Below are positions 27,324-45,650 of a DNA stretch of 64,000 nt, in pieces; position 1 is the stretch's first letter, and each line of letters begins with the position of its first letter. Both the position numbers and the translations under genes were made by a program. The stretch spans positions 124,001 to 188,000 of the forward strand of contig JABTUS010000009.1 in assembly GCA_015075305.1 (NCBI GenBank). Direction: 5' to 3'. Below the pieces are notes generated by a model, which ran no database searches, was not told the origin of the DNA, and was given only the letters and a program-made list of their open reading frames with translations. The stretch comes from Opitutaceae bacterium (lineage in GTDB: Bacteria > Verrucomicrobiota > Verrucomicrobiia > Opitutales > Opitutaceae).

Positions 27324-28013
27324 TCACTCGACAAGCCGGTATCCAATGCCCGCGTCCGTAAGCAGGTGGCGCGGGGTCTGCGGGTTCCCCTCAAGCTTCT
27401 GCCGCAGGTGCGTCATGTGCACGCGGAGGTAGTGCGTGTTGTTCTCCCCCGCCGGGCCCCAGACTTCCCGAAGAATGTGGTCGTGCGTAACGACCCTGCC
27501 GCGATGCTGGACCAGCAGGCGAAAAAGCGCGTACTCCTTCGCCGTGAGGTGCACCTCGGCGCCGCTGCGCCGGACTATTCTCGCCGCAAGATCGATCTCG
27601 ATTTCTCCGAAGCGCACGAGCGAGGTGTCGCTGTTCAGCTGCGTGCGGCGCATGATCGCGCGCATGCGCGCCAGCAGTTCACCTGCACTGAATGGCTTGG
27701 AAAGGTAGTCGTCCGCCCCGGCATCCAGCGCCTCGATCTTCTCCCGCTCGCCGGAGCGGACCGAAAGAATGAGAACGGGGGCTCGCGACCACTCGCGGAG
27801 CCTGCGCAGCACTTCCACGCCGTCCATGTCGGGCAGTCCCAGATCGAGAATGATGCCATCCGGCTGGTTGAAGGCGGCCTCCTGCAGGCCGGTCTGGCCG
27901 GTTTCCGCTTCGCAGACCCCATAGCCCGCGCTCGTCAATGTCAGCCGCAGCAGACGGCGAATCTGGAGCTCGTCGTCGATGATCAGCACCTTTTGACCAG
28001 GGGTCGGGTTCAT
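27324..28013 (-). CDS. kdpE: KdpE response regulator
   Basis: A 229-residue OmpR-type response regulator. The receiver domain has the acidic pair at 13-14 (IIDDE), the phospho-acceptor Asp57 (IILDLGLPDMDG) and the conserved Lys (YLSKPFSAGE). The winged-helix output domain follows (VHLTAKEYALFRLLVQHRGR, NTHYLRVHMTHLRQKLE), with the KdpE-typical HYLRVHMTHLRQKLE. KdpE activates the kdp operon on potassium limitation or salt stress when phosphorylated by KdpD. Its start overlaps the kdpD stop (ATGA), so the two are translationally coupled. Confidence 0.95.
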   Translation of the reverse strand: MNPTPGQKVLIIDDELQIRRLLRLTLTSAGYGVCEAETGQTGLQEAAFNQPDGIILDLGLPDMDGVEVLRRLREWSRAPVLILSVRSGEREKIEALDAGADDYLSKPFSAGELLARMRAIMRRTQLNSDTSLVRFGEIEIDLAARIVRRSGAEVHLTAKEYALFRLLVQHRGRVVTHDHILREVWGPAGENNTHYLRVHMTHLRQKLEGNPQTPRHLLTDAGIGYRLVE

Positions 28014-30670
28014 TCGGAGGAGGCGGGCTGGGGGGCCTTGAAGGGCAGGTAGATCGTGAAGGCGGCGCCGCCACCGGGATTCTCTCCGGCGACAATTTCG
28101 CCGCCCTGTGCGACGATGAATCCGCGCACAATCGAGAGCCCGAGGCCCAGGCCGCCGGCGCGCGCGGCGTCGCCTCGGGAAAACTTCTGGAACACCCGGT
28201 CCTTCATCGAGGCAGGCAGTCCCGGACCCCTGTCGGCGACCATGAAGAAGACGCGCTCCTTCCCCCTGTCCATGCCGGCGGTCAGAAACACGGTGGTTCC
28301 CGGCGGCGTGTGCGTGGCGGCATTGAGGAGCAGGTTGGCAAGCGCCTGCTCCGTGAGCGCAAAATCCGCCTGGACGGGAGGCAGATCGGGCGGAACCGAA
28401 ACGTCGACCGGATGATTTGCCAGGGCATCGCGCACTTCATTCAGCGCCGCGTTCAGCATGTCGTTCATGTCGCACCAGTCGAGCCGGGGTTTGAGCGCGC
28501 CGCTTTCGAGCCGCGTCTGGTCGAGCAGATTGCCGACGAGACGATTGAGGCGGCGGGAGGCGGTCCGCCCCTCCGCCATCAGGCTTTCCCGCAATTCCGC
28601 ACCGCCAGTCTCCGCCAGACTGTCAAATGCGCTGGTGATGACGGAGAGAGGGGTTCTCAGTTCGTGCGACACGCTGTCGAGGAGGACGCGATGCAGCTTG
28701 TCAGACTCAGCGAGGAGCTTCTCGCGCTCGCCGGCCTCTCGGAGGTGCTCGCGCTCGACCGACAGCGCGAGCTGCCGCGCAAAGGCGTCGAGCAGGTCGC
28801 GCTGGGCCAGCGTGAGCTTCTCCCCCGAGGGAACCATGACACCCAGCACGCCGAGCGACTGATTCTCCAGGGTCATGGGAACATAGTAGCCGGAGCTGCC
28901 GGGAAGCGTGTCGGTGAACCGCCCCGCAGGCCGCCTGTGGCGGAAAGCCCAGTTTGCCACGCCCGCTTCATTCTCGTTGAGCGAGTAGGAACCGGCGTAG
29001 TGCAGCACGGGCGCGGCGCCGCGGTCGAGCGCGAGAAGCAGCGCGGTCCGCGCGCCGAGAAGCCCGTCAAGCTGACGCAATGCGGCGAACACCGCCTCAT
29101 CCAGCGTTCCCGCCTCCGCGAGCGATCGCGTGAGGGTGAAGAGGGCGACGGCCCGCTCCTCCCGCCTCCGTTCGTTGCGCGCCTGCGCGCGGATGCGCGA
29201 TGTCATCTGCCCCGCCACGAGCGCGACGATGAAATACGTGATGAAGAGGATGCCGTTCTCGATGTTGCCAATGTGGAAGGTGAATTTTGGAGGAATGAAC
29301 AGGTAGTTCCATGTCAGGGCGCTGAGCATCGCCGCGAGGAGGACCGGCCATCGGCCCACGCGAAGCGGCAGGAAGACGATTGCGAGCAGGTAGATCAATC
29401 CGATGGCAAGGTAGTATTTCTCGGGAAGCGCCAGACCGAGGGCCGTGACGGCGGCCACGGCGAGAGCCGACCAACCATACTCGGATGGGCGGCGAACCAT
29501 GGCCTCCAGGCCGCTCCAGACGGGACGCTGCGAGCGCGGTTCGGCGGGCACGACATAGATGTCGATGTTTCCTCCCTGGCGAAACAGCCGGTCGACCAGG
29601 TTGCCCCGAATCCAATCGAGCGGTCGGAAACCCCTGGGTTTTCCCACTACGATCTGCGTCGCGTTGTGATGCAGGGCGAGGCGCACCAAAGCTGCGGCAG
29701 CGTCCTCGTCGTGGGTGATGACAACTTCGGCGCCCAGTTCACGGGCGAGCGAAAGATTTCGGTCGAGCAGGGCCTGTTCATTGGGGGAAAGGGCGCGCGA
29801 CGATTCGATGTGGGCGGCGATCCAGGGTGCGCCCTGGGCGGCGGCCAGGCGCCTCGTCCAGCGCACGAGCTGCGTTGAAAACGGGCTTGAGCCTACTGCG
29901 ACGAGCATGCGTTCGCTGCTTCGCCACACGGTCTTCTTCACCTGGGTCGAGCGCAGGCTGCGCAACTGGCGCTCGACGCGTTCGGCGGTGAATCGAAGGG
30001 CGAGCTCCCTCAATGCGGTGAGATGGGTGTCCTTGAAAAAGTTTTCCGCCGCCGTCGCGGCCTTTTCACCGAGGTAGACCTTCCCCGCGGACAGGCGCTC
30101 CTGCAGAGCCTCGGGAGTGAGATCGATCAGCTCGATCTGGTCGGCCAGGTCGAGGAGTGAATCCGGAACGGTTTCGTGGACGGTCACGCCCGTGATCTGA
30201 CGGACTGTGTCCGCGCGGGACTCCACGTGCTGGATGTTGAGAGTTGTGAAGACATCGATGCCTGCATCGAGAAGCTGAATAACGTCCTGGTAGCGTTTGG
30301 CGTGAATCGACCCCGGAGCGTTTGTGTGCGCCAGTTCGTCCACCAGCACGAGCTGCGGCTTGCGGGCCAGAATGGCCTCAAGATCCATCTCCTCGAGATG
30401 AATGTCCCTGTAGGCGATCTTTTTCCTCGGCACCTGTGGCAGACCCTCGAGCAGCGCCTCCGTTTCCGCGCGGCGGTGAGTCTCGACGATTCCCACGACG
30501 ACATCCACGCGGTCGCGCAGCTCGTCGTGGGCGGCCTGGAGCATGGCGTACGTTTTTCCGACTCCCGGGCACATGCCGAAAAAAACCTTGAGCATGCCGC
30601 GGCGAGCCCGCTCCTCTCCGCGTTTCAACGAGGCCAGCAGTGCATCGGGGTCGGGTTTTCGCTCGGTCAT
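28010..30670 (-). CDS. kdpD: KdpD sensor histidine kinase
   Basis: An 886-residue KdpD. The N-terminal KdpD domain has a Walker A motif (CPGVGKT at ~34-40). A universal-stress-protein-like domain follows (QIVVGKPRGFRPLDWIRGNL), then four closely spaced DUF4118 transmembrane segments, a GAF-like domain, and a histidine kinase core with SHELRTPL (His669) and the ATPase boxes ADRGPGLP and GLGLGLSIVRGF. It senses potassium or turgor status and controls KdpE. The gene overlaps kdpE by four bases and follows kdpC with one small gene between. Confidence 0.95.
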   Translation of the reverse strand: MTERKPDPDALLASLKRGEERARRGMLKVFFGMCPGVGKTYAMLQAAHDELRDRVDVVVGIVETHRRAETEALLEGLPQVPRKKIAYRDIHLEEMDLEAILARKPQLVLVDELAHTNAPGSIHAKRYQDVIQLLDAGIDVFTTLNIQHVESRADTVRQITGVTVHETVPDSLLDLADQIELIDLTPEALQERLSAGKVYLGEKAATAAENFFKDTHLTALRELALRFTAERVERQLRSLRSTQVKKTVWRSSERMLVAVGSSPFSTQLVRWTRRLAAAQGAPWIAAHIESSRALSPNEQALLDRNLSLARELGAEVVITHDEDAAAALVRLALHHNATQIVVGKPRGFRPLDWIRGNLVDRLFRQGGNIDIYVVPAEPRSQRPVWSGLEAMVRRPSEYGWSALAVAAVTALGLALPEKYYLAIGLIYLLAIVFLPLRVGRWPVLLAAMLSALTWNYLFIPPKFTFHIGNIENGILFITYFIVALVAGQMTSRIRAQARNERRREERAVALFTLTRSLAEAGTLDEAVFAALRQLDGLLGARTALLLALDRGAAPVLHYAGSYSLNENEAGVANWAFRHRRPAGRFTDTLPGSSGYYVPMTLENQSLGVLGVMVPSGEKLTLAQRDLLDAFARQLALSVEREHLREAGEREKLLAESDKLHRVLLDSVSHELRTPLSVITSAFDSLAETGGAELRESLMAEGRTASRRLNRLVGNLLDQTRLESGALKPRLDWCDMNDMLNAALNEVRDALANHPVDVSVPPDLPPVQADFALTEQALANLLLNAATHTPPGTTVFLTAGMDRGKERVFFMVADRGPGLPASMKDRVFQKFSRGDAARAGGLGLGLSIVRGFIVAQGGEIVAGENPGGGAAFTIYLPFKAPQPASSE

Positions 30671-30731
30671 GGGCTCGGCCGGAATGCTACGGGGACGGAA
30701 TCACGCGGCAAGGCGACTTGGAGTCGCAGAT

Positions 30732-30890
30732 TTACGGGGTCCGTCCGGGTGTGTGGAAAGGGGCCCATCGACCCTTGTCGGTGATGGTCTGGCGACAGGA
30801 GGGATCGAGCACGGCCATGGTGGCAATCGCGGTCAGGATCACCGCCAGAACAACCGCCCTTTTCAACTCCTTTGTCGAATATTGTCTCAT
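30732..30890 (-). CDS. Small membrane protein between kdpC and kdpD (unrecognised)
   Basis: A 52-residue frame with a start of ATG at 30890 and stop TAA at 30732-30734, 15 bases after kdpC and 61 bases before kdpD, same strand. It begins MRQYSTKELKRAVVLAVILT and continues AIATMAVLDPSCRQ: a positively charged N-terminus, one hydrophobic segment and a short polar tail, as in a single-pass or exported small protein. There is no clear Shine-Dalgarno. The tight spacing in an operon supports it being real, but I know no family for it. Confidence 0.45.
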   Translation of the reverse strand: MRQYSTKELKRAVVLAVILTAIATMAVLDPSCRQTITDKGRWAPFHTPGRTP

Positions 30891-30905
30891 GCCTGTGAGG
30901 GACGT

Positions 30906-31526
30906 TCAGGGAGTCTCGTGTCCATGGATTCCGGGGTGCGTCCTGGCCAATCCGTCGAGCGTGCGATTCAGCTGGACAACGTTGACACGCGATGCGCCGA
31001 GGACGCCGAGATCCCGAGCCTTTGTGTGCTCCATCACCAGGGCGCGGACCGTGTCAATAGGCAGACCGCGGGCCATGGCGACGCGTGCTGTCTGAAGGTC
31101 CGCGTTGACGACGCTGATCTCGGGATCCAGACCGCTGCCGGAAGCTGTGACCGCGTCGGCGGGCACGGGTGTCATCGCCGTCAGTCCATTGCGCGAGCGA
31201 TATGCGCTGACATTGACCGCGATGAGGTCGGCGAGTTTTCTGCTGGTCGGTCCGAGATTTGATCCGGAGGAGGCTGTTGCGTCATAGCCCGCGCCCGCCG
31301 CAGAGGGGCGGGGGTGAAAATAGCGGTCGCTCGGGAAGGGCTGTGCGATCAACTCGGAACCTCGAATCGTGCCATCGGCGTCGACGATCAGGCTGCCGTT
31401 TGCCTTGTGGGGAAAGAGCGCCTGAGCGCCGGCCCATACGGTAAGCGGATAGAGCGCGCAGAGCAGCACGGCCATGACGAGCGTCAGCAGGGATGAAGTG
31501 GCAAGTGCGGACAGGAAGGTTTTCAT
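30906..31526 (-). CDS. kdpC: KdpC subunit of the potassium-transporting ATPase
   Basis: A 206-residue KdpC: a single N-terminal transmembrane segment (LATSSLLTLVMAVLLCALYP) and an extracytoplasmic domain with family phrases (GSELIAQPF, YFHPRPSAAG, SGSGLDPEIS, GVLGASRVNVVQLN). KdpC is the accessory subunit that stabilises the KdpAB complex and assists ATP binding. It lies 15 bases after kdpB. Confidence 0.95.
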   Translation of the reverse strand: MKTFLSALATSSLLTLVMAVLLCALYPLTVWAGAQALFPHKANGSLIVDADGTIRGSELIAQPFPSDRYFHPRPSAAGAGYDATASSGSNLGPTSRKLADLIAVNVSAYRSRNGLTAMTPVPADAVTASGSGLDPEISVVNADLQTARVAMARGLPIDTVRALVMEHTKARDLGVLGASRVNVVQLNRTLDGLARTHPGIHGHETP

Positions 31527-31541
31527 GGTGCGGGAAAAGGT

Positions 31542-33584
31542 CTAGACGAGATTCAATGCATTGATGGCGATATCGATCAGCTTGATGCCGGCGAAAGGGA
31601 TCAGCATTCCGCCCACGCCGTAGACAAGGAGATTGCGGCGAAGAAGAGCCGCGGCGCCGATGGGTTGATATGACACTCCCCTGAGCGCGAGAGGGATGAG
31701 CGCGATGATGATTAGCGCGTTGAAGATCACCGCGCTCAGGATTGCGCTGTGGGGGGAGCCCAGGTGCATGACATTGAGCGGCGCGATGGCGGGAAACGCG
31801 ACGATGAGCATGGCGGGAATGATCGCGAAATACTTGGCGACGTCATTGGCGATGCTGAAGGTCGTCAGCGCCCCGCGCGTGATGAGCATCTGCTTTCCAA
31901 TTTCAACGATCTCCAGGAGCTTCGTGGGATTCGAGTCCAGGTCGACCATGTTGCCGGCCTCCCGCGCGGCCTGGGTTCCCGTGTTCATGGCGACACCGAC
32001 GTCGGCCTGGGCGAGCGCGGGCGCATCGTTGGTGCCGTCGCCCGTCATGGCGACCAGATGGCCCTCCTCCTGTTCGCGGCGGATTCTTGCGAGCTTCATC
32101 TCCGGTGTGGCCTGCGCGAGAAAGTCGTCGACTCCCGCCTCGGCGGCGATGGCCGCGGCCGTCAGCGGGTTGTCGCCGGTGATCATCACCGTGCGGATGC
32201 CCATGGCGCGAAGCTGGGCGAAGCGCTCCCTGATGCCTCCCTTGACCACGTCCTTGAGGGCGATGACACCGAGAACCTCGCGCCCATCCGCGACAACCAG
32301 CGGGGTGCCGCCCTGCCTTGAGATATCCTCGACCGAATTTGTGATGGCCGCTGGATAGGCGCCGCCTTGGCCTTCAACCCATTGTCTGATGTTTTCCGCC
32401 GCGCCCTTGCGGATCCGCCGTGGACCGTGGCCGACTTCGCCGGACAGATCCACGCCGCTCATGCGGGTCTGCGCGGTGAAGGGCACGAACACTGCGTGCG
32501 GTGCCGCGAGGTCGCGTGCCCGCAGGTTGAACCGCTCCTTGGCGAGAATGACGATGCTGCGGCCCTCGGGTGTTTCGTCGGCGAGCGAGGCGAGCTGCGC
32601 CGCATCCGCCAGGCGCTCGCGCGCGACTCCCGGGGCAGGGATGAACTCAGCAGCCTGGCGGTTGCCGAGGGTGATGGTTCCGGTCTTGTCGAGCAGGAGA
32701 ATGTCGATGTCGCCTGCGGCCTCGACCGCGCGCCCGCTGGCCGCGAGGACATTGCGCCGCAGCAGCCGGTCCATGCCCGCTATGCCAATGGCGCTGAGCA
32801 GGCCTCCGATCGTCGTCGGAATCAGACAGACCAGCAGCGCGATCAGGGTCGCGATCGAGAACGTGGCGTTTGCGTGCTCCCCGAAGGGCTTCAACGTGAG
32901 CACCACGATCAGGAAGATGAACGTCAGCGCGGACAGGAGAATCGTGAGGGCGATTTCGTTGGGGGTCTTCTGGCGCCTGGCTCCCTCGACGAGACTGATC
33001 ATGTGGTCGAGAAATCCCTCACCCGAGCCCGCCGTTATCCGGATCAGCAGCGTGTCCGACAGCAGGGAGGTTCCGCCAGTGACCGCGCTGCGATCTCCGC
33101 CCGCCTCGCGAATGACGGGAGCGGACTCTCCGGTGATGGCGGATTCGTCAACGGATGCGGCTCCCTCGATGACCTCGCCGTCGCCCGGTATCAGCTCGCC
33201 AGCATTGACCTTGACGAAATCGCCCCTGGCAAGTGTGGAGGCATCGATCGTCTCCCATGATCCGTCCGCGCTGCGCCGTCGGGCGCTCATCTGCCGGCGT
33301 GTGGCCCGCAGCGCGCGCGCCTGCGCCTTGCCGCGCCCTTCGGCGACGGCTTCGGCGAAGTTGGCGAAGAGCACGGTGAAGAGAAGCCACAGGGCGATTT
33401 GGAGGACGTAGGTGAACGGCTCCTTCGAGGTGAAGAGCTGCAGGAAACAGAGCAGGGATCCGGTCAGGGTCACAAGCATCACGGGGTTCCTCAACTGAAG
33501 CCACGGATTGAGCCTTCGGATGGAATCGACGGCCGCTTGACGAAGAATCGTGCGATCGAAGAGCGAGATTGATTTTGTGCTCAT
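31542..33584 (-). CDS. kdpB: KdpB, P-type ATPase catalytic subunit
   Basis: A 680-residue P-type ATPase subunit that energises KdpA. Start chosen at ATG 33584 ([11 protein letters not shown]), 28 bases after kdpA; the frame is open further upstream into kdpA but that part looks non-coding. Key motifs: TGES at 151-154, the phosphorylated Asp299 in [17 protein letters not shown] and [18 protein letters not shown]. The C-terminal part has several transmembrane helices ([20 protein letters not shown]). TGES, the regulatory motif, is intact. Confidence 0.96.
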
Positions 33585-33612
33585 GGTTGGAGAAGACAGA
33601 CGTGCGGATGGC

Positions 33613-35427
33613 TCAGAACAGGACTCCACCGGCCATCAGGAAATGCTCCACGATGGGTCCCATCGCGAGGGCCGGAAGGTAGGAGAGGGCTCCCACGAGA
33701 AGAATCGTGCCTATCAGCAGCAGGACGAAGGTGGGGCCCCCGGTGTCGAGGGTTCCCATGGTTGCGGGCGCGCAACGCTTGTTGGCGAGGCTTCCGGCGA
33801 TCGCCATGACAGGCACGATCATGAGGAAACGCCCGATGAGCATGGCGATGCCAAGTGTCACGTTGTAGCGGGGGTCGCCATCGGCGGGATTGGCCACGAG
33901 ACCGGCGAATGCGCTGCCGTTGTTGCCGATTGCGGAGCTGTAGGCGTAGAGGATTTCCGTGAATCCATGCTGTCCGGCGTTGCTGAGCCCGGCCTGTCCC
34001 CAGGTGCTTGCGCAAGCCCACGCCGTGAATCCCAGCAGAGGTGTGGACAGCGCCATCAGGACCAGCACGCACATCTTCATGTCGAAGGCCCCGATCTTCT
34101 TGCCCAGGTATTCGGGCGTGCGCCCGACCATCAGGCCTGCGATGAACACGGAAAGCAGGGCAAAGATCAGGATTCCGTAGAGCCCGGCGCCGACGCCGCC
34201 GAAGATCACCTCGCCGGTCTGCATGTTGAACAACGGGACGAGTCCGCCGAGAGGCGTGAACGAATCGTGCATCGCGTTGACAGCGCCGCAGGAGGCAGCG
34301 GTCGTAACGGTCGCAAAGAGCGTGGAGCCTGGAATGCCGAAGCGGGTTTCCTTGCCCTCCATGTTGCCGTCCGCCGCCGCGACACCGAGCGCCTGATGAA
34401 CAGGATTGCCGGAAGCCTCGGCCCACCAGGACGTGCAGGCACCCGCGACAAACAGCAGCGTCATCGCGGTCCAGAGCGCCCAGCCATGCCTCTGGTTCCG
34501 TGTCTCACGGCCAAAGTAGTAGGTGAGCGCGCTCGGGATGGCCAGGATGGCGAGCATCTGGAGAAAGTTCGAAAGCGGAGTGGGGTTCTCGTAGGGATGC
34601 GCCGCATTGGCCCCGAAGAAACCGCCGCCATTCGTGCCGAGGAGCTTGATGGCGATCTGCGACGCCACGGGGCCCTGGGGGATGAGCTGGGAATTGACGG
34701 TCTTCGACGTCATCACCGGGGCTCCATCCGTCCCGGTGATGACCTTGCCCTGTGCGTCCACCGCCGGCGATTCCCGGGTGATGGCCTCAAGGGTCTTCGC
34801 GGAGACGCAAGGCCTGAAATTCTGGATCATTCCCTGCGAAACGAACGCCAGGGCCAGGACCAGGCAGATCGGGAGCAGCACATAGCAGGTGACCCGCACG
34901 ATGTCGGTCCAGAAATTTCCGATGCTCCTGGCGGACTTTCTGGCAATGCCGCGGGTGAGCGCCGCGGCGACGCCGATGCCGACCGCCGCGGAGGTGAAGT
35001 TGTGGATGGTGAGCGCCACCATTTGGGAAAAATAGGACAGCGTCGACTCGCCGCTGTAGCTTTGCCAGTTGGTGTTTGTCGTGAAACTGGCGGCGGTGTT
35101 GAACGCAAGGTGTGCGGATAGGCCGGGCAGGCCCTGTGGATTGAGGGGAAGCAGGTGCTGGTATCGAAGGATGAAATAGGTGAAGAGCATGCCCACGAGG
35201 CTGAAGGCGAGCAGTGAGGTCGTGTAACTGATCCAGGTCTGCTCAACCTCCGGCCGAATGCCGCAGATCCGGTAGGTGATTCGCTCGATCGGCTTGACGG
35301 CGCGATCGAGGCAGGTTCTGCCGTTCGCATCGAGAACCCGGACAAGGTGCAGCCCGAGGGGTTTTGTCAGGAGCGTGAGTGTCCCGAGGAAGAGGGCGAA
35401 TTGAAGCCAGTCGCTGGTGTTGTTCAT
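33613..35427 (-). CDS. kdpA: KdpA, potassium-binding channel subunit
   Basis: A 604-residue polytopic membrane protein, the potassium-selective subunit of KdpFABC. The four selectivity-filter-like loops are recognisable ([65 protein letters not shown]). Length is slightly above the E. coli protein. It lies eight bases after kdpF and begins with [10 protein letters not shown]. Confidence 0.96.
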
Positions 35428-35435
35428 CGCAGTGC

Positions 35436-35519
35436 CTAGAATTTTTCGGGCCAGAGCACGGCGGCGAGCAGGTAGGCCAGCGTTGCCATGGCGAAGAGAA
35501 GGATCAGCGCGGTCTGCAT
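35436..35519 (-). CDS. kdpF: KdpF, small membrane subunit
   Basis: A 27-residue single-pass membrane peptide (MQTALILLFAMATLAYLLAA, then a short tail ending in WPEKF), stop TAG at 35436-35438. It sits eight bases before kdpA, the standard place for kdpF, and has the usual length and hydrophobicity plus the YLLAAVLWPEKF-type ending of that peptide. KdpF stabilises the Kdp complex. Confidence 0.88.
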   Translation of the reverse strand: MQTALILLFAMATLAYLLAAVLWPEKF

Positions 35520-35550
35520 GTGACGGATGTTGATTGTGTTGACCGCGACA

Positions 35551-35640
35551 CTACCGAAGCCGTTCGCAGAGGCGTGCGTACGCCAGGCAGAGGCAGAAGA
35601 AGATCACCGTGGTGCCGCTGAATATCAGGTCGCTCATCAT
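35551..35640 (-). CDS. Tiny transmembrane protein upstream of kdpF
   Basis: A 29-residue frame with start ATG at 35640 (a second ATG follows directly) and stop TAG at 35551-35553. The sequence MMSDLIFSGTTVIFFCLCLA continues YARLCERLR: one transmembrane helix and a basic tail. It lies 31 bases before kdpF as the first frame of the operon. I recall comparable short proteins ending in CERL or CDRL ahead of kdpF in other phyla; its role is not established. A charged end after a helix resembles a small regulatory or assembly subunit. Confidence 0.65.
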   Translation of the reverse strand: MMSDLIFSGTTVIFFCLCLAYARLCERLR

Positions 35641-35675
35641 GCGCCCATCATGCCACACCGGATTGTCGGCGCATA

Positions 35676-35713
35676 ATTAAGACCAGAGCCGAAAGCATTA
35701 AGAAAGTGTTAAG
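35676..35713 (-). promoter_or_regulatory. Candidate KdpE operator: three phased CTTAAY repeats
   Basis: On the minus strand CTTAAC (35708-35713), CTTAAT (35697-35702) and CTTAAT (35676-35681) are spaced 11 and 21 bases apart, one and two helical turns. OmpR-family regulators bind direct repeats with about this spacing. The site lies 36-73 bases before the first kdp frame, so KdpE is the natural candidate. Confidence 0.5.
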
Positions 35714-36036
35714 GCCCGCGGATACGGAGCAGCATGGGGTGAGCAGGGGATGAACTTCAGGATTAAAGAGCTTCATGTGGGCGCAGCCGTTGGAACGCGG
35801 CAGTCCAATGGGGCCCGATCAGTCGTTCTCAATCACCTGGGCATGACTGCATGTCACCTCCAACGGAGCGGGGGACGCATGATCGAGCAGCCGAGGGGAA
35901 AATCGGGTGGAGAGGCACGCTCCGTCGTGACCTGGGGACGCGCATCGCGAAACGACGCCGGAAGGGAGGGTAAATTGGCGGACGGTCGAAATTTTTGGCT
36001 TGCGAAACGGTGAGGATGGGTGTTTGTCACGTTTCT
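35714..36036. other. Intergenic region between the divergent kdp operon and TPP riboswitch
   Basis: Holds one dispersed repeat copy (35906-35965). At 35834-35878 there is a second motif (CCTGGGCATGACTGCATG) that resembles the reverse complement of 59494-59531, so a second repeat family is possible. No gene is visible. Confidence 0.5.
35906..35965 (+). repeat. Dispersed intergenic repeat, copy 3
   Basis: Carries GGCACGCTCCGTCGTGACC, GGGGACGCGCATCGCGAAAC and GACGCCGGAAGG. It is the best-preserved copy and serves as reference for the alignments with copies 1 and 2. Confidence 0.6.
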
Positions 36037-36137
36037 GCTCGTAGGGGTGTCCTCCGCGGAGGACTGAGATTGCGGTGCGCTCGGCCGCTCGACCCTTTGA
36101 ACCTGAAACGGATCATACCGGCGAAGGAAACAAGCGA
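36037..36137 (+). ncRNA. TPP (thiamin pyrophosphate) riboswitch
   Basis: The thi-box is clear: AGGGGTGTCC (36043-36052), ACTGAGA (36062-36068), ACCCTTTGAACCTG (starting 36092) and GGATCATACCGGCGAAGG (36110-36127). CTCG (36038-36041) can pair with CGAG (36135-36138) to close helix P1. It lies about 70 bases before the TonB receptor start, followed directly by a hairpin terminator. TPP binding would stabilise P1 and repress the receptor. Confidence 0.93.
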
Positions 36138-36165
36138 GGTCGCGTCGCGGGACGCGTCCTTTTTC
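36137..36165 (+). terminator. Riboswitch-controlled intrinsic terminator
   Basis: AGG-T-CGCGTC (36137-36146) pairs with GACGCG-T-CCT (36151-36160) around a GCGG loop, followed by TTTTT. Its 5' end shares bases with the 3' strand of riboswitch helix P1, the usual geometry for ligand-dependent transcription termination. Confidence 0.75.
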
Positions 36166-36208
36166 CGTCTCCCGGGAGTTCGAATTGGGTCGGGCATCAT
36201 TCAACATG

Positions 36209-38551
36209 CGACACCCAACACGAATCCTTCTCATCGGCCTCGCCAGTCTCGCGGCCGAAACCAGCGTCCCGGGGCAGACCTCCGCCGATGACGTGGTTGC
36301 CCTGGAAAAGTTCCAGGTGACAGGCCTCCCGGTGGAAAAATCGATCAACCCGCTCACGCGTGCGATCTCATCCGTCTTCGGGGACGATCGAAATCCACTC
36401 GAGACGGCCCGCTCGGTGAGCACGCTGACGACCGCGCTGTTCAACGAGCGCCAGATTCACGGCGTCAGGGAGATCCTCCTGTATTCACCCGGCAGCTACG
36501 CCGGGGCGAGTTATGGAAAAACGACGGTGCCCAACCTGCGCGGTGACACCGCGGAGACCTACCTCAATGGACAGCGGTTGAGCTACAATCTCTACGGGTA
36601 CTTTCCGTCGTTCAACGGCGTCGAGGCCGTCGACATGGTCCGCGGGCCGGGCTCGGCCGTTTTCGGCGCCGGCTATTTCCAGGGGGGATACGTCAACTAT
36701 GTGACCAAGCGGCCGCAGTTTTCGCACCCGTCAACGGTGATCACCACCCGTGTCGGAACCTGGGCGCCGGGCGACACCAGTTTTCTGAACGGCTCCGTGC
36801 AGATCGACACGACCGCCCCCGTCAGCGACCGCCTGGCGTGGCACCTGAGTCTGGAAGGCATGGGCGGGAAAACCTACTTCAGGAAGAACCATGTGCGGGA
36901 TGATCGGATTGACGCCTTCGCCGCCGTTTCCTGGAAACCCGCCGAAGGCACCAGCGTGGAGTTTGTGGCACAGTACCTCTGGCAGGCGGCGCCGGAAATC
37001 CTCGGCGTGAACAGGCCCAGCCAGGAGCTGATCGACTCCGCGCGCTACTACACCGGGGACTCGGCGGATCTGTCCCCTTATCCCGGGCCGATTCCAGCGA
37101 CGGGTTCCATCATTCTTCCCCGCGATGCGACGCTCTTTTCGAAGGGGGATTTCTCAAACGCCAATGTCTTCCGCAGTCAGGGCGTGCTCACCCGGATGAT
37201 TTCACCGGCCCTGACGCTTGTGAACCGCACCCTTGTCGAGCATGTGAACCGGCGCCGGGTGCACAGCTTCGAGTACGCGGAATACGTGACGCAGGACACG
37301 GCGGAGAACCGAACGGAGGCTCATGCGAGCTTTTCGCTCGCCGGCATGCCGCAGCGGGTGATAGCGGGGGCGACGGTTCGTTACGAGGGACGCCGGAGCT
37401 TCACGAACTATTTCAACGAATACTTCTACAACTTCGACATCACGAATCCCGCGCGTGTGTTTGACGAAAAGAACCGGTATCCCGCCTCCTATTTTCATGG
37501 CTTCATCGGACCGGGCGGGCGCGAGTTTTTTCCCGCCAGCTATGACAGTCCTGAAACCGTTCGCAGCGAGACGTGGAATCCCGCGTTGTTCTGGCAGCAG
37601 GACATTCAGTTCACGCCGAAACTTTCGGGCACGATCGGCTGGCGCGAGGACGTGTTTTTCGCTCGGGCGCGGGATCCCCTCGAGGATGCGTCGGGAATTT
37701 CCTTTCGCGACGCCGAAACGGTCGATGCCCTTTCCGAAGCCTACAGCCTGGTTTATCGCGCGGCGGCCAATATCTCCGTCTATGCCACCCACAACCGCAT
37801 GCGCTCGGCGCTCGGGAATGTCACGGGAGGAGGCGTGATCCTGAATGTGCCGGATGGGCAGATCAACCGGGACGACTTCCGCAATCTCTCAGAACTGGTG
37901 GAGATCGGCGCCAAGGCATCGTGGCTGGAGAATCAGCTCTTCACCGCGACGACGGCGTTCGAGCAGACACGGTCGCGTGTTTCAATCGGTGGGCGCAGGA
38001 ATGACATCCGCGTGAGCGGGATCGAAATTGAGGCGGTGTACCAGCCGAATGCGCGGCTGCAATGGACGGCGAACGCGACCTTTCAAAATGGCTGCTACCT
38101 GCAATCCCGCCCCTTTCAGCTCGGCGGAAGGTCGATCTACGCCGCCTATGCCGCCGGCAGGGGGCCCTATGGAAAGGGAACCGCCGGCGCTGAGTTTGAT
38201 CCATACGCGAACCAGGTGTCGCCAGGCGACTGGCCGCTGCTGGGGTTTTCAGACACACTGTTGAACGGCAGCGTCCGCTATCGCTGGGAGAACGGGTTTG
38301 GGGCGGGAGCCACGATCGCCTGGCAGAGCGAGCAGCCGGGGAATCTCGACAAGGAGTGGATGATCCGCGATCAGTTTCTGATCAATCTGTCGCTGTCGTT
38401 TGAAACAAGAAAATGGACCGCCAATCTCGATCTGCTGAATGTCACAAATGAGAGAAACTGGATTCACAATGGCGATGCCTACACCGGCAGCCAGATCGTG
38501 TTTGCCGAACTGCCCTTTCGGCTCGAGGGGTACGTCAAGTTTCGCTTTTAG
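36209..38551 (+). CDS. TonB-dependent receptor under TPP riboswitch control (probable thiamin uptake)
   Basis: A ~780-residue outer-membrane TonB-dependent receptor. The ATG at 36209 starts a signal peptide (TRILLIGLASLAAETS). A plug domain follows (VPNLRGDTAETYLNGQRLSY, VEAVDMVRGPGSAVFGAGYF), then a beta-barrel ending in the terminal aromatic residue (YVKFRF). The leader carries a TPP riboswitch with terminator, so expression rises when thiamin pyrophosphate is low; uptake of thiamin or a precursor is the simplest reading. No other thiamin gene is nearby. The frame is open to a TTG at 36185. The following nuclease gene is 90 bases downstream. Confidence 0.88.
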   Translation, partial: RHPTRILLIGLASLAAETSVPGQTSADDVVALEKFQVTGLPVEKSINPLTRAISSVFGDDRNPLETARSVSTLTTALFNERQIHGVREILLYSPGSYAGASYGKTTVPNLRGDTAETYLNGQRLSYNLYGYFPSFNGVEAVDMVRGPGSAVFGAGYFQGGYVNYVTKRPQFSHPSTVITTRVGTWAPGDTSFLNGSVQIDTTAPVSDRLAWHLSLEGMGGKTYFRKNHVRDDRIDAFAAVSWKPAEGTSVEFVAQYLWQAAPEILGVNRPSQELIDSARYYTGDSADLSPYPGPIPATGSIILPRDATLFSKGDFSNANVFRSQGVLTRMISPALTLVNRTLVEHVNRRRVHSFEYAEYVTQDTAENRTEAHASFSLAGMPQRVIAGATVRYEGRRSFTNYFNEYFYNFDITNPARVFDEKNRYPASYFHGFIGPGGREFFPASYDSPETVRSETWNPALFWQQDIQFTPKLSGTIGWREDVFFARARDPLEDASGISFRDAETVDALSEAYSLVYRAAANISVYATHNRMRSALGNVTGGGVILNVPDGQINRDDFRNLSELVEIGAKASWLENQLFTATTAFEQTRSRVSIGGRRNDIRVSGIEIEAVYQPNARLQWTANATFQNGCYLQSRPFQLGGRSIYAAYAAGRGPYGKGTAGAEFDPYANQVSPGDWPLLGFSDTLLNGSVRYRWENGFGAGATIAWQSEQPGNLDKEWMIRDQFLINLSLSFETRKWTANLDLLNVTNERNWIHNGDAYTGSQIVFAELPFRLEGYVKFRF

Positions 38552-38641
38552 CACGAGAGCGGATTCGATGGCGCTGATGGTGCAGCGGCTGGACTGCGAT
38601 CCGGTGAAATTCGAAAAGGCCATTCGAAAGCCGGGGCGGTC

Positions 38642-39607
38642 GTGAGGGCGGGCGGGGTTTCGATCCGGGGGGTGTCCAGACTGTTCCGCTTGGGACGGCG
38701 CCTGCTGTGGCTCAACATCATCGCGCTGGGTGTGTTTGGAGGCTGGTATCTGTTTCAACCGGATGGCCGGCAGCGCGAGGTGGCGCAGCTCGTGCACAAT
38801 GCCTTCATCGCCGAAAAGCATGTTTCGCCCTTCGAGGTGGTCTGGGACATCTGGCAGCTCTACTACGGGGATGATTCCACCGCCGCCCTTCGATTGAACG
38901 CCGATCGGCGTCTGGCGATCGGCGGGCTGCCGGATTCAACCGCCTTTCACCACGGCAAGGTCCGCGTCCTGATGAACTCGGCCTACGTCGTCGGGTACAG
39001 CGAAACACTGTGCGGTCCGGTGTGGGCGGCCTATCGCATTCAGGATCTTGACCGGTTGGAGCCCGCGCCGCCCCGTCCGGATCACTTTGAGATCGACATG
39101 CGGACTCTGGCCAGGGTTTCCCCGGAGGCGTATCGAAAAAGCCACTACGACCGCGGCCACCTGGCGCCGAATCATGCGATCGCCACACGGTTCGGCGAAG
39201 CCGCGCAAAGGGAGACGTTCCTGATGTCCAACATCGTTCCGCAGTCGCACGAACTCAACGCCGGTCTGTGGAAGGAACTCGAGCAAAGGATCGCCGGCAA
39301 CTATCCCGCGCGCTACGGCGAGGTGTGGGTGTTTTGTGGCCCCATCTTCCCCGAGAATCCGCGCCGTCTGTCGAGGCGCGTGGCGATTCCGGACCGCTTC
39401 TTCATGATCATCCTCGACGAAGTCGAGGGGCGGCTGCGCAGCCAGGCGTTTGTGCTGCCTCAGGACGCCCCCGCCGGCGCGTCGCTTGCGGCGTATGGCA
39501 CTTCGATCGACAGGATCGAGGAAATGACCGGACTTGATTTCCTGAGTGAGCTTGATCCCCAGTCCGTCGCGGCCCTTGAGGCGAAAGTCACCCGCACGCC
39601 GTGGTGA
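38642..39607 (+). CDS. Membrane-anchored DNA/RNA non-specific endonuclease
   Basis: A 321-residue NUC1/NucA-type nuclease starting with GTG at 38642. A transmembrane anchor lies near residues 20-40 (LLWLNIIALGVFGGWYLF). The catalytic motif is YDRGHLAPNHA with the general-base His173, then SNIVPQSHELNAGLWKELEQ carrying the metal-binding Asn and Glu, as in the family. The anchored nuclease domain probably faces the periplasm and degrades nucleic acids there, for nutrition or DNA uptake control. The exact start is uncertain because the upstream frame is short and no Shine-Dalgarno is clear. Confidence 0.85.
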   Translation: MRAGGVSIRGVSRLFRLGRRLLWLNIIALGVFGGWYLFQPDGRQREVAQLVHNAFIAEKHVSPFEVVWDIWQLYYGDDSTAALRLNADRRLAIGGLPDSTAFHHGKVRVLMNSAYVVGYSETLCGPVWAAYRIQDLDRLEPAPPRPDHFEIDMRTLARVSPEAYRKSHYDRGHLAPNHAIATRFGEAAQRETFLMSNIVPQSHELNAGLWKELEQRIAGNYPARYGEVWVFCGPIFPENPRRLSRRVAIPDRFFMIILDEVEGRLRSQAFVLPQDAPAGASLAAYGTSIDRIEEMTGLDFLSELDPQSVAALEAKVTRTPW

Positions 39608-39639
39608 CGGATGTCCCAAGGCGGCGTGCGTGAAGACTG

Positions 39640-41067
39640 TCAGGATTTGGGAGCGGTTCCGACGGTGCCGGCCTTGATCAAGGTCATCCGATCCGGGTTC
39701 ACGTGCCTTCGGATTGCGCCATTCACCTGGTCGAGTGTCAGAGCGTCGATCATCGACGGGTAGCGGTCCAGCCAGTCGATTCCGTAGCCGCGGTGGATGG
39801 AGATGAGCAGGGAATCCGCGAGACCGTCGGTTGTCGCCATGCCGACCTTGAAGGTTCCGATCAGGTCCTGCTTCACGCGCTGGAGTTCGGCGGCGGTGAT
39901 GCCGTTGTCATGCCACTTGCGGAGCTCGCGCTCCGTGGAGGCGATGCCCTTGTCGAGCAGTGCGGGACTGAATTCCGCGCTGATCCGGAAATCGCCGTCG
40001 GCAAAGGTGTCGTTGCCCTCCGCAGCCCAGATGCTGTAGGTCAGGCCCTCCTTGTCGCGCACGGTCGCCATCAGGCGGCCGGTGAATCCGCGGCCAAGCA
40101 CGGCTCCCGCCACGCGCATCGCGAGGGCGTCGGGATCGGTGTACTGAAGTTGTGTCGCCTGGCCGAGAATCACGCTCACGTTTGTCTTGTCGGCCATGAA
40201 GACGGTCTCTTGGTGAAAGCTGCGCGATGCCCCGGCCCTGGCAAAGGCCGGCAGCGGGGGGCCCCCGCGCCAGCCTTCAAAATGATGCGCAACCTCGGCT
40301 TGCAGCGTGGACGGATCGACGTCGCCAACCACAACAAGCGTGAACCTGGCGGGACCGTAGAATGCGGCGTGGAAGTCGCGAACCTGCTGCAGGGTCGCCC
40401 CGTTGACGGCTGCAATGAAGTCCGCGGTGGCGGGCGTGTGGTTGGGGTGACCTTCCGGATAGACCGACTGAACGAACACCTCGTTCGCGCGATAGTCGGT
40501 GCGCTCCAGCATGCGCTGAAGGTTTCCGGCGAGCTGCTTCTTCAGCTTTTCGAACTCCACCTCCGAGAACGCCGGAAAACGCAGTTGCTCCGCGAGCAGC
40601 GACACCACCAAGGGCAGATCCCTGCGCAGGCATTTGCCGCTGATGGTGAGCATGGTTTCATCGACCTTGAACGCGAGCGACGCGCCGACTCCCTCCAGAA
40701 GGCCTGCTATGGCAAACTTGTCGTGACGCCGGGTGCCCTTGTCCAGCATGCCTCCGGCGAGTGTTGCGATGGCGGGATTTGACCCGGGGGAGAGCACGTC
40801 ACCGGCCGGCAGCGATGCGCGGAGGGTGACGACTTCCTTCACGCCTGTCGGGTAGGCGATGACATCGATCCCGGCGACGTTTGCACGGATTGCATGAGCG
40901 GCCATCGACGAAGCTCCGGCGGATACGGGCAGGGTTATCGCGAGGAGTGAGCCGGCCGCGGCCGCAACGAGGAATCGCCGCGCCTGGCGCGGCAGCGAAG
41001 TGGTGTTTTCCGCAGAGGAGAAGGGATTGAACATGAAACTCATGGAAGTTGGGAGCAATGGCCTCAT
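39640..41067 (-). CDS. M16 family peptidase-like protein lacking the zinc motif (M16B partner subunit)
   Basis: A ~475-residue exported protein of the M16 fold (FAIAGLLEGVGASLAFKVDE, LKKQLAGNLQRMLERTDYRA, FTLVVVGDVDPSTLQAEV, VAGAVLGRGFTGRLMATVRD). The HxxEH zinc-binding motif is absent, as in the non-catalytic chain of heterodimeric M16B proteases. The catalytic partner is encoded directly upstream and its stop overlaps this start (ATGA at 41064-41067), which favours the 41067 start; ATGs at 41043 and 41034 give shorter versions. A signal sequence is visible (RRFLVAAAAGSLLAITLPVS). Confidence 0.85.
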   Translation of the reverse strand: MRPLLPTSMSFMFNPFSSAENTTSLPRQARRFLVAAAAGSLLAITLPVSAGASSMAAHAIRANVAGIDVIAYPTGVKEVVTLRASLPAGDVLSPGSNPAIATLAGGMLDKGTRRHDKFAIAGLLEGVGASLAFKVDETMLTISGKCLRRDLPLVVSLLAEQLRFPAFSEVEFEKLKKQLAGNLQRMLERTDYRANEVFVQSVYPEGHPNHTPATADFIAAVNGATLQQVRDFHAAFYGPARFTLVVVGDVDPSTLQAEVAHHFEGWRGGPPLPAFARAGASRSFHQETVFMADKTNVSVILGQATQLQYTDPDALAMRVAGAVLGRGFTGRLMATVRDKEGLTYSIWAAEGNDTFADGDFRISAEFSPALLDKGIASTERELRKWHDNGITAAELQRVKQDLIGTFKVGMATTDGLADSLLISIHRGYGIDWLDRYPSMIDALTLDQVNGAIRRHVNPDRMTLIKAGTVGTAPKS

Positions 41068-42449
41068 TTCTCAGTGGATTCGGCGTTCGTTGGAACGAAC
41101 CAGCCGGTCGTGCTCTGGTCCTCGAGCAGGTAGCGGTTCGCAACGCGGGCGACATCGCCGGCGGCCACCTTTTTCAATGCATCGTTGATCGTGACGAACA
41201 GCGTCCAGTCGCCTGTGGCGATGAACTCGTTGATCGCGCTGGCGATCGCGAAGGAGCCGTCGCGGGCAAAGGCGGACGCTGCGAGAAGCTGGTTGACCGC
41301 GCTGCTCACCTCGCCCTCGGTGACGCCATCCTTTTTCAGTCTCTCGATTTCTGAGATCATGACCTTCTCCACCTGATCGTGAGTGGCTCCGGGTGCCAGC
41401 CAGGCGGAGATCGAGATCAGCGAGGGGTCATGGAACATGCCGGCGTCGCTTTGCACGTTTGTCGTGAGGTTCTTGTCCGTCAGCGCACGGTAGAAGCGGC
41501 TGCCCTTTCCGGAGGAGAGTATGGCATTCAGCACCGCGATGGCGGCGGTGTCGGGATCGCGCCCGGAGGGGACCTTGTAGGCGATGCCGACGATGCCGAG
41601 CTGGCCGGCGAGTTTGGTGACGACGCGGCGCGGACCGGTCTGGGGGGGTTCGACCGTGTAAACGACGGGAATGGGTTTTGGTGCGCGCGGGTAGGGGCCG
41701 TAATATTCTTCGATGAGCGCGAGCGCAGAGGAAGGATCGAAGTCGCCCACGACGGTGACGGTAGCGTTGTCCGGCCAGTAGAAGGTGTTGTAGAATTCGC
41801 GCAGCTTCTCGATCGGCACGTTCTCGATGTCGCTGCGCCAGCCAATGGTGGAGTGGTGGTACGGGTGCGCGACGTACGCGGCCGCGGTGATCTCCCGATC
41901 GAGCACGCGGAGAGGATCGTTTTCGCCGATCTCGAATTCATTGCGCACGACGGTCATCTCGGGGCGGCGGTCCTCCTCGCGCAACCGCAGGTTGCGCATG
42001 CGGTCGGCCTCGAGTTCGACGATCTTCGCCAGATGCTCGCTGCCGAGATTGGCGTAGTAGTTGGTGCGGTCCAGCCAGGTGGTGGCGTTGGAAATGGCCC
42101 CGACGCTTTCGAGGAACTGGTCGAGACTCGTGCCCGATTCACGGTTGTGCGAGGGCGTTCCCTTGAACATGAGGTGCTCCAGGAGGTGGGTCGCACCGGT
42201 CGTGCCGGTTACCTCGTTGCGGGAGCCGACGCGATACGTCACCATGAAGGTGAGAACGGGGGTCGAGTGGTCTGGAAGGAGCAGCACCTGCAGGCCGTTT
42301 CTGTCGAGGGAGTACTCCTGGATGCCGCCCAGGGTGCGGACGTAGCTGAAGCCGGCAACCTTCGCCGGAGGTTCGGACGTGGGCACAGCTGCTTGGAGCG
42401 CAAGTGCCGATACTGCCAGGGATGCGGTCAGCCAGGATCTGAATTTCAT
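41064..42449 (-). CDS. M16 family zinc metalloprotease
   Basis: A 461-residue exported M16B protease. The ATG at 42449 starts a signal peptide (SWLTASLAVSALALQAA). The inverted zinc motif HLLEH is at 88-92 (GATHLLEHLMFKG), with a third ligand probably Glu171 in VVRNEFEIGEN. The arginine/tyrosine-rich part of the fold and VTVVGDFDPSSALALIEEYY are typical. It probably forms a heterodimer with the inactive paralogue encoded by the overlapping downstream gene and degrades peptides in the periplasm. Upstream in-frame sequence to 42644 would invade the recD2 gene and is not used. Confidence 0.9.
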   Translation of the reverse strand: MKFRSWLTASLAVSALALQAAVPTSEPPAKVAGFSYVRTLGGIQEYSLDRNGLQVLLLPDHSTPVLTFMVTYRVGSRNEVTGTTGATHLLEHLMFKGTPSHNRESGTSLDQFLESVGAISNATTWLDRTNYYANLGSEHLAKIVELEADRMRNLRLREEDRRPEMTVVRNEFEIGENDPLRVLDREITAAAYVAHPYHHSTIGWRSDIENVPIEKLREFYNTFYWPDNATVTVVGDFDPSSALALIEEYYGPYPRAPKPIPVVYTVEPPQTGPRRVVTKLAGQLGIVGIAYKVPSGRDPDTAAIAVLNAILSSGKGSRFYRALTDKNLTTNVQSDAGMFHDPSLISISAWLAPGATHDQVEKVMISEIERLKKDGVTEGEVSSAVNQLLAASAFARDGSFAIASAINEFIATGDWTLFVTINDALKKVAAGDVARVANRYLLEDQSTTGWFVPTNAESTEK

Positions 42450-42504
42450 GGAGAGTTTGAACCACCCTAGCGATGCGAGTTCCCGCGCCAAGCGCGGATC
42501 GGCA

Positions 42505-44769: not shown

Positions 44770-44907
44770 GGCGATTTCAGACCGTGCCGGTATTGGAATC
44801 CTTCAAAGGGGAAATGGCAATTGTCCAGGATTGCCGAAGACGGGGCTGCGTTTGAAGCACGGGCGGCGGCGTTGCGGGTGGGTGGAATGCGGGACCGCCT
44901 TGAGTCA

Positions 44908-45564
44908 TCAGCGTGATGCAGGCTCTGCCAGAAGAGCGGCGGTCAGCGAAGTGAGATCGGGAAACACCCGTGATGCACCGGCGGCGAGAAGCTGGCCGGT
45001 GTCGTGGGTGCCGGTCGTGACCGCCCAGCAGGGACACTGCGCATTGATGCCAGTCTGCACGTCGAACGGAGAGTCACCAATCATCAGCAGCCGCTCGGCG
45101 GGCAGCTTCATTTCGGCGAGTGCATGGGTGAGAAAACGAACGTCCGGCTTGAGCCAGGGAGTGTCGTGCGCTCCGAAAACCCCCTTGAGCCAGTGCGTGA
45201 TTCCCAGGTGTTCGCAGATGCGGCGGGATGCGGTTCCCAGTTTGTTGGTGAGGACTGCGCACGAGCAGCCCCGTGCTGAGAACGCCGCAAGGGATTCTTT
45301 GGCACCCGGAAGCAGGATTACATCATCGAGCATGGTGCGATCGAAGTAGTCGCGGTAGATTGTCAGAGCGTCGGCGAGCTGCGCCTGAGTGACAAATCGA
45401 AGCATCGCCCGCTCCAAGCCGCCGCCGACAGCGCTGCGGACCTGTTCCAGCGTGGGGGCGGGCAGGCCCAACTGAGGCAGGGTGTGAACATAGCTTCGAT
45501 GGATGGCGGCAAAATGATCCACCAGGGTGCCATCGAGGTCGAAGAATGCGGTGCGCGGAGGCAT
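44908..45564 (-). CDS. HAD-family phosphatase (phosphoglycolate phosphatase-like)
   Basis: A 218-residue HAD hydrolase. The ATG at 45564 is followed by the catalytic FFDLDGTLVD (Asp9 nucleophile, Asp11 acid/base). Motif II is AVLTNK and motifs III/IV are WLKPDVRF and MIGDSPFDVQTG. The cap domain is of the small helical C1 type. Gph-like removal of phosphoglycolate or another small phosphate ester is likely; the substrate is not determined by the sequence. It is divergent from the lipid-transport operon, and 138 bases separate it from recD2. Confidence 0.85.
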   Translation of the reverse strand: MPPRTAFFDLDGTLVDHFAAIHRSYVHTLPQLGLPAPTLEQVRSAVGGGLERAMLRFVTQAQLADALTIYRDYFDRTMLDDVILLPGAKESLAAFSARGCSCAVLTNKLGTASRRICEHLGITHWLKGVFGAHDTPWLKPDVRFLTHALAEMKLPAERLLMIGDSPFDVQTGINAQCPCWAVTTGTHDTGQLLAAGASRVFPDLTSLTAALLAEPASR

Positions 45565-45650
45565 GAGAGGGTCAAAGCTCCCCAAAACTTCAGCACGGGT
45601 GCAAGCAGTTTGGCTTTGCCGTGTCGCCTGGACTGGATGATTTTCCGTCA

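Follow-up and report, generated by a model that had tools for sequence, protein, structure and literature searches.

The window analysed here is a 64,000-nt stretch of one contig of an Opitutaceae genome (4.87 Mb, 17 contigs, 97.6% complete). Its forward strand carries a TPP riboswitch aptamer, a terminator-like hairpin, a conserved leader element termed E, and the gene for a TonB-dependent receptor, receptor A, whose ATG lies 60 nt from the end of the aptamer (Table 1). A gene for a DNA/RNA non-specific endonuclease (PF01223; 38642–39607, + strand) is located approximately 90 bp 3′ of the receptor gene on the same strand, and just upstream of the riboswitch the opposite strand (27324–35427) holds what are presumably the potassium uptake genes kdpA, kdpB, kdpC, kdpD and kdpE.

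Table 1 Features of the riboswitch–receptor locus, in window positions
Feature	Positions	Strand	Basis
TPP riboswitch aptamer (RF00059)	36033–36146	+	Rfam match at 68.2 bits (gathering score 54.3)
Terminator-like hairpin, 10 pairs, one mismatch, with T5	36136–36164	+	Fold and scan
Conserved leader element E, CGGGAGTTCGAATTGGGTCGGGC	36173–36195	+	Complementary to aptamer strand 36087–36105 and to the first codons
Hairpin predicted to enclose the start codon	36178–36225	+	Minimum-energy fold of the aptamer-free leader
TonB-dependent receptor, type A, 781 aa, predicted thiamin receptor	36206–38551	+	PF07715, barrel model, PDB matches, ortholog and exclusion pattern

The aptamer match (E = 2.9e-11) covers the full length of the RF00059 model, positions 1–105 of 105, and exceeds the curated threshold of the family. 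It is the sole Rfam match at gathering score within the window and the single copy found in the genome, and the covariance search bears out the TPP riboswitch proposed in an earlier, sequence-only reading of this DNA. In the Rfam alignment the structure extends from P1 to P1 over 36038–36134. The fold z-score of the leader was unremarkable (−0.44), and a promoter scan yielded nothing useful. The aptamer, the receptor and their fixed association are established at the level of sequence; binding of TPP at 36033–36146 and a change of expression are predicted. For the family as a whole, most of the listed riboswitches precede genes of thiamin synthesis or predicted uptake, the substrate of the receptor being a prediction.

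Receptor A has the architecture of a TonB-dependent receptor, a plug followed by a β-barrel. Only the plug domain was reported by Pfam (PF07715, 35.6 bits), PF00593 not being reported. In the AlphaFold model built from 20 orthologs the barrel is good and the plug is of low confidence (mean pLDDT 59.8). Of the 299 PDB matches to this model at E 0.001 or better, the best belong for the most part to TonB-dependent receptors of the siderophore type, and the PQQ receptor PqqU ranks sixth. Among curated models, those for siderophore and heme receptors come closest, each far below its cut-off, and the solved sequence nearest to receptor A is that of an enantio-pyochelin receptor. Sequence and modelled fold taken alone would suggest iron as the substrate, so that the riboswitch and the comparative evidence decide. 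From the genomic pattern, receptor A is predicted to be a thiamin-specific receptor of the OMthi kind. Among the open reading frames of 28000–46000 no inner-membrane thiamin transporter was recognised; the earlier description of the receptor as standing alone is thus literally true of this region, but a probable inner-membrane partner is encoded on another contig, as described below.

Orthologs of receptor A were found in 20 named GTDB genomes, with 60–84% identity in the best segment and titles of Opitutaceae, Opitutae, Opitutia, Opitutus or unclassified Verrucomicrobia metagenome-assembled genomes. RF00059 lies directly upstream in 19 of them, and the twentieth locus is truncated where its contig stops. 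Across 288 sampled genomes of the phylum, only Opitutaceae gave matches of at least 47% identity. The pattern was followed in 150 genomes of the family, which include part of the 20 ortholog genomes; 141 contain RF00059 at E 0.001, 127 of them over the cut-off. Among the 150 riboswitch matches listed, the target on the same strand within 1.5 kb is receptor A in 34 cases, a second receptor type, receptor B, in 60, ThiC in 40 and none of these in 16. Nine of the last group have ThiE approximately 0.9–1.0 kb downstream, and at four of the nine (L005, L017, L023 and L030) the first open reading frame is presumably ThiM; in G045, G053, G077 and G105 the riboswitch sits about 300 bases or less from a contig end, and the remaining three are in G097, G103 and G112. 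Receptor B is a TonB-dependent receptor with both Pfam domains and is distantly related to receptor A (252 barrel columns, 19% identity and a probability of 91.8 in a profile comparison whose B side comprised 3 sequences).

Receptor A (at least 45% identity), receptor B and ThiC are present in 36, 62 and 47 of the 150 genomes, respectively (one of two G108 rows was omitted from the ThiC table, with genome counts unchanged). No genome has both A and B, two have A with ThiC, four have B with ThiC, and 11 have none of the three; the genomes are drafts, and absences hold within their completeness. This mutual exclusion is not one old split, because at least 11 genera, among 19 picked from 49, contain two of the three states in different species and because the A and B labels change at least 18 times among the 85 labelled rows of the PnuC tree described below. 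A and B occur together in five genera (g1, g4, g37, g39 and g45). Two genomes carry a pair of type A receptor genes: those of G076 (L058:3926–9419) form a tandem on either side of the riboswitch, and those of G045 (L060:1–10116) are approximately 5.6 kb apart.

Neither ThiC, ThiE nor TPK has a match in the 97.6% complete genome of the window, and ThiL has one; the bacterium appears to be unable to make thiamin. Across the family, ThiL was found in 141 of 150 genomes at E 1e-20 and TPK in one. Imported thiamin would require a kinase that forms TMP, the substrate of ThiL. TPP-controlled import of thiamin by receptor A is well supported, in genomic terms, by the riboswitch at 19 of the 20 orthologs together with the replacement pattern with ThiC. 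The sequence-only reading had the receptor importing thiamin or a precursor: thiamin or thiamin phosphate stands, and a precursor falls away, since it would be useless to a genome in which no ThiC or ThiE was found.

The window's genome contains one PnuC-family gene (G000:C5), on a different contig from the receptor. A 4-bp overlap joins it to the gene of an AAA_28 protein that resembles the kinase part of NadR and is encoded at L051:6769–7314 on the − strand. The PnuC assignment follows from PF04973 (174.9 bits), and TIGR01528 matches at 78.2 bits against a cut-off of 42.45; Pfam and NCBIfam label the carrier as a nicotinamide nucleotide/riboside transporter, and for the kinase the match is to the NadR family. 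The full-length NadR model TIGR01526 matches the kinase over positions 164–320 of 325 only (95.7 bits against a cut-off of 341.15), which is the kinase part alone and not the two-part NAD enzyme. The pair has no riboswitch of its own, the genome's sole RF00059 match lying elsewhere. PnuC-family genes are present in 94 of the 98 genomes with A or B, compared with 4 of the 41 with ThiC only. In a tree of 107 PnuC rows, with long branches outside the main clade, 89 rows form a main clade (support 99/94) drawn from A genomes, B genomes and four genomes with none of the three, and from no ThiC-only genome. The clade reaches 85 of the 98 A or B genomes, a lower bound, as fragments of G138 and G067 were left out. 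At 84 of the 89 main-clade loci the kinase gene lies 3′ of PnuC on the same strand, counting hits of at least 250 bits just downstream of PnuC (the kinase profile also caught out-of-frame readings of the PnuC region, giving 178 hits for 108 PnuC hits). A downstream kinase was not found at L139, L158, L148 and L075, and in G009 (L081:1050–2399, − strand) PnuC and the NadR-like kinase are fused in one open frame of 449 aa. A more distant PnuC, again with a kinase, stands beside the riboswitch in seven type B genomes (G008, G019, G048, G089, G101, G110 and G120). The missing inner-membrane part is probably the PnuC-family gene elsewhere in the genome, coupled to the NadR-like kinase, and on the basis of co-occurrence the two are predicted to be PnuT and a thiamin kinase.

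Four genomes with A or B (G032, G070, G079 and G087) lack PnuC. G032, a type B genome with no PnuC over the cut-off and no ThiL, contains the sole TPK of the 150 genomes, and at L168:2904–7115 this TPK and a sodium:solute symporter gene lie beside the TPP riboswitch and receptor B. An exception of this kind is what would be expected under the thiamin reading. Its genus mate G070 (75% complete) has no PnuC, ThiL or TPK, which the thiamin reading leaves unexplained. Receptors approximately 34% identical to receptor A are encoded in G113 (L053:5108–9738, − strand), beside PnuC, NadR-like and NrtR-like genes, and in G014 (L052:4347–9529, − strand), beside PnuC, an NrtR-like gene and a NadR-like kinase hit. 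These receptors probably serve nicotinamide riboside, a possible sister function within the receptor family, and receptor A and a nicotinamide riboside receptor may descend from a common ancestor.

In the leader, the terminator-like hairpin pairs 36136–36139 with 36158–36161 and 36141–36146 with 36151–36156, leaving one U·U mismatch (−17 kcal/mol in the fold of 36130–36166). The 10-pair hairpin with T5 that had been noticed after the aptamer was thereby recovered; the T tract occupies 36160–36164, its first two residues belonging to the stem. A G+C-rich stem followed by a T tract, the form of an intrinsic terminator, is thus present, and only part of the relatives have one. The 3′ strand of P1 in the Rfam alignment (36130–36134) makes no contact with this hairpin. 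The strongest partner of the P1 5′ strand (36038–36042) is 36134–36138, and this alternative register shares 3 nt, 36136–36138, with the hairpin; the overlap between P1 and the hairpin's 5′ end that had been described therefore applies to the strongest-pairing register and not to the Rfam P1.

A simple terminator scan of 35428–38700 returned 3 sites, against 3.5 in shuffled sequences, and by that scan the hairpin, whose 6-pair core is one of the three, is unremarkable. In related leaders, hairpins with at least five T in eight bases occur in 15 of 48 (10 of 26 type A and 5 of 22 type B), compared with 2% of shuffled leaders. Such hairpins are commoner than chance, yet they are not the shared mechanism of these leaders. 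The T run is missing in two of the three closest relatives, L031 reading ccttag and L033 ccttaa at its position; the sequence of the third, L032, ends upstream before reaching it. Termination as a mechanism conserved throughout the family was rejected on these two grounds, and the proposal that the receptor is switched off by transcription termination is weakened accordingly, although termination at the window's own leader is plausible. Inspected by eye, many of the L031–L050 and L191–L210 leaders contain, between P1 and element E, G+C-rich hairpins ending in GCGCCCC and a T run whose length varies widely, from 2 to 7.

Leaders were compared from 30 type A, 35 of 60 type B, 21 of 40 ThiC-type and 4 ThiM-type riboswitches. 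Element E, searched as GGGAGTNNGNNNTGGGTCGGGC with at most three mismatches, occurs in 21 of the 30 leaders of type A and in 17 of the 35 of type B, but in none of the 21 ThiC leaders and in none of the 4 ThiM-type leaders; the window's genome has one exact match, the window copy, and one site with two mismatches. Further tests used 48 of the 65 A and B leaders. The 17 omitted comprise L019, identical to L042 in the stretch used, L044, L058 and L061, in which the start codon is uncertain, and 13 type B leaders with a different hairpin before the ATG; in L035 and L198 the start codon was assigned manually. The 13 represent a second kind of receptor B leader, in which a hairpin formed by GGATCTCAA...TTGAGATCC stands immediately 5′ of the ATG (L002, L003, L004, L006–L010, L013–L016 and L027; genera g8, g19, g20 and g48).

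The coding start is also conserved. Starts like CTCCCGACACGAATC, with at most three mismatches, were found in 12 of 30 A, 16 of 35 B, 0 of 21 ThiC and 1 of 4 ThiM-type leaders, and the commonest start among the 48 leaders reads ATG, CAA or CGA, CTC, CCG, ACA, CGA, ATC, CTC, CTC. Codon 5 is ACA in 22 and codon 6 is CGA in 21 of the 48, whereas from codon 21 onward in ten receptor A genes ACA makes up 3.6% of Thr codons and CGA 3.0% of Arg codons. Because these codons are rare further along and frequent here, the first codons are probably under selection at the nucleotide level, as judged against receptor A genes from codon 21 on.

In the minimum-energy fold of the window's leader without the aptamer, E pairs with the first codons (36178–36182 with 36221–36225, 36185–36190 with 36213–36218, and 36194–36197 with 36206–36209), taking in the AUG itself; the terminator hairpin is not formed in this fold. 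This start-codon hairpin is a product of folding models, and its covariation is weak. With the aptamer kept apart, 45 of the 48 leaders are predicted to pair E with the codons (at least five expected pairs). E is also strongly complementary to the aptamer strand, at a mean of −21.0 kcal/mol against −15.3 kcal/mol for shuffled E. Pairing E with the aptamer strand of its own leader gave no advantage over cross pairs (16909 of 20000 permutations were as good), and for E and codons the duplex energies of own against cross pairs were equalled in 1828 of 20000 permutations. Consensus folding kept 6 pairs of the E–codon helix; covariation exceeded the 95th percentile of background for 2 of the six and the 99th for none, and a proof of the helix by coevolution was given up on the strength of these two results. 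Folding of the full-length leaders does not clearly show the TPP-free state: it pairs E with the aptamer strand (at least five expected pairs) for just 5 of the 48, and for just 14 does inclusion of the aptamer leave the first codons more accessible than in the aptamer-free fold. As the conserved E is complementary both to the aptamer and to the first codons, it suggests translational control besides termination. That E is the switch element itself, freed by TPP binding to close the start, is a tentative proposal held at somewhat less than even confidence.

Several other readings of the uptake system were weighed. A receptor for HMP or another thiamin precursor would equally fit a pattern in which the receptor replaces ThiC, and it is nevertheless very improbable, since ThiE, on which any use of HMP depends, gave no match in 33 of the 36 A genomes and in 57 of the 62 B genomes, the window's included. 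ThiE is thus found in 3 A and 5 B genomes (G110 among the latter below the family cut-off), compared with 40 of 41 ThiC-only genomes; HMP import was rejected on this ground, and neither HMP nor thiazole would help a genome without a ThiE match. Import of TMP or TPP in place of free thiamin would let ThiL alone complete the pathway with no thiamin kinase, in keeping with the near-universal ThiL, shared by the window's genome, and the single TPK of the family. PnuC and NadR work by taking up an unphosphorylated vitamin and trapping it by phosphorylation, and the kinase found next to nearly every main-clade PnuC fits uptake of that sort, which makes import of a phosphate ester improbable. A more substantial alternative, though still unlikely, is that the PnuC clade and its kinase serve NAD salvage from nicotinamide riboside and occur in thiamin auxotrophs by coincidence. 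The family models name both proteins in this way, the kinase resembles the kinase part of NadR, and more distant PnuC genes adjoin NrtR-like genes in G113 and G014, with a NadR-like gene also in G113; moreover, the window's own PnuC is 36–38% identical to the PnuC of NAD clusters and 25–31% identical to the PnuC beside type B riboswitches. Against this, NadA is present in 71 of 89 genomes with the main clade and 49 of 61 without it (Fisher p 1.0), the window's genome being among those that have NadA, and ThiC in 4 of 89 and 43 of 61, respectively; these Fisher values ignore kinship and are descriptive. The clade is thus independent of NadA and strongly opposed to ThiC, so that NAD supply is not what explains its spread. 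In addition, six genomes (G003, G014, G105, G113, G123 and G129) hold a second, different PnuC besides that of the main clade; of the two, this additional copy is the one located in the NrtR cluster of G014 and of G113.

For the leader, the chief alternative is that regulation occurs purely by termination, E and the first codons being kept for the signal peptide, for start-proximal codon choice or through recent leader exchange. The good hairpin with T5 in the window, the excess of such hairpins over shuffled leaders and the outcome of the own-against-cross test for E–codon duplexes all favour it. The loss of the T run in close relatives, the sharing of E by leaders of two distantly related receptor types and the codons at positions 5 and 6, rare by comparison with codon 21 onward, speak against it, and it is considered a real possibility at roughly one chance in three.

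The explanation preferred as a whole, which is considered quite probable on genomic grounds, is that receptor A carries out the outer-membrane stage of thiamin import in a bacterium auxotrophic for this vitamin. At low TPP the leader would permit synthesis of receptor A; when TPP is bound to the aptamer, expression would be shut off. Receptor A would bring thiamin, or possibly thiamin phosphate, across the outer membrane, and thiamin would then cross the inner membrane through the PnuC-family carrier encoded elsewhere (PnuT). The NadR-like AAA_28 kinase, whose gene overlaps that of the carrier, would phosphorylate thiamin to TMP, and ThiL would convert TMP to TPP. With less certainty, the switch may act partly by termination at the window copy and partly through E, which might pair with the aptamer strand without TPP and, once TPP binds, with the first codons so as to cover the AUG. 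A bolder joint reading falls a little short of an even chance: the AAA_28 protein would be an undescribed thiamin kinase, forming TMP from thiamin and with ThiL replacing TPK in the family; E would pair with either the aptamer or the first codons; and leader and coding start would have stayed in place while the receptor body was exchanged between A and B.

TPP-controlled TonB receptors are already known, and the core of the system is of a known kind; the regulatory and metabolic details around the receptor A locus are a variant worth testing. The family offers a natural experiment in which ThiC synthesis, receptor A and receptor B stand in for one another under TPP riboswitches, and the replacement pattern points to the substrate of two unassigned receptor types. 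It suggests that proteins modelled as a nicotinamide riboside transporter and kinase are thiamin proteins in many Opitutaceae genomes, names a candidate for the missing enzyme step, a thiamin kinase, and identifies the bacteria as probable users of thiamin that other organisms produce. A literature search, with most subscription journals outside its reach, found no paper combining Opitut and TPP riboswitch, nothing to the point by title on Opitutaceae and thiamin, and no recognisable report of a NadR-like or PnuC-linked thiamin kinase.

In the E. coli thiM and thiC riboswitches, possible translational control is exerted at the start codon, with the ribosome-binding site as the target; the predicted pairing in the window's leader differs in reaching codons 3 to 7. 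Compared with the NadR and PnuC of NAD salvage, both Opitutaceae genes match the corresponding family models, but only the kinase part of NadR is matched and the distribution follows thiamin auxotrophy, not NadA. A close parallel in arrangement, backed by genetic evidence, is that of OMthi (BT2390), pnuT-tnr3 and the TPP riboswitches in Bacteroides thetaiotaomicron, where a TPP riboswitch precedes a TonB-dependent receptor and the inner-membrane carrier belongs to the PnuC family (PMC5613172). Deletions in that system, made in a background lacking synthesis, increase the thiamin requirement for growth, and transcript levels of its riboswitch-linked transport operons did not change significantly with thiamin (PMC5613172). 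Bacteroides also has a full synthesis operon and couples pnuT with a thiamin pyrophosphokinase (PMC5613172), whereas neither synthesis genes nor TPK turned up in the Opitutaceae genome, whose carrier goes with a NadR-like kinase and ThiL. A TPP riboswitch operon with a TonB-dependent receptor is likewise described for Variovorax; TPP control of such a receptor is common to both groups, the Variovorax receptor lying within a synthesis operon (PMC10409787). A coastal study lists 'omr1' as a TonB-dependent putative B1 transporter (PMC10881298). Finally, an earlier survey assigned thiamin to TonB-dependent receptors of several sequence regions by their linkage to PnuT (PMC2771747); what differs in Opitutaceae is that two receptor types replace each other within one family, in five genera between species, and often under a leader with the same element E.
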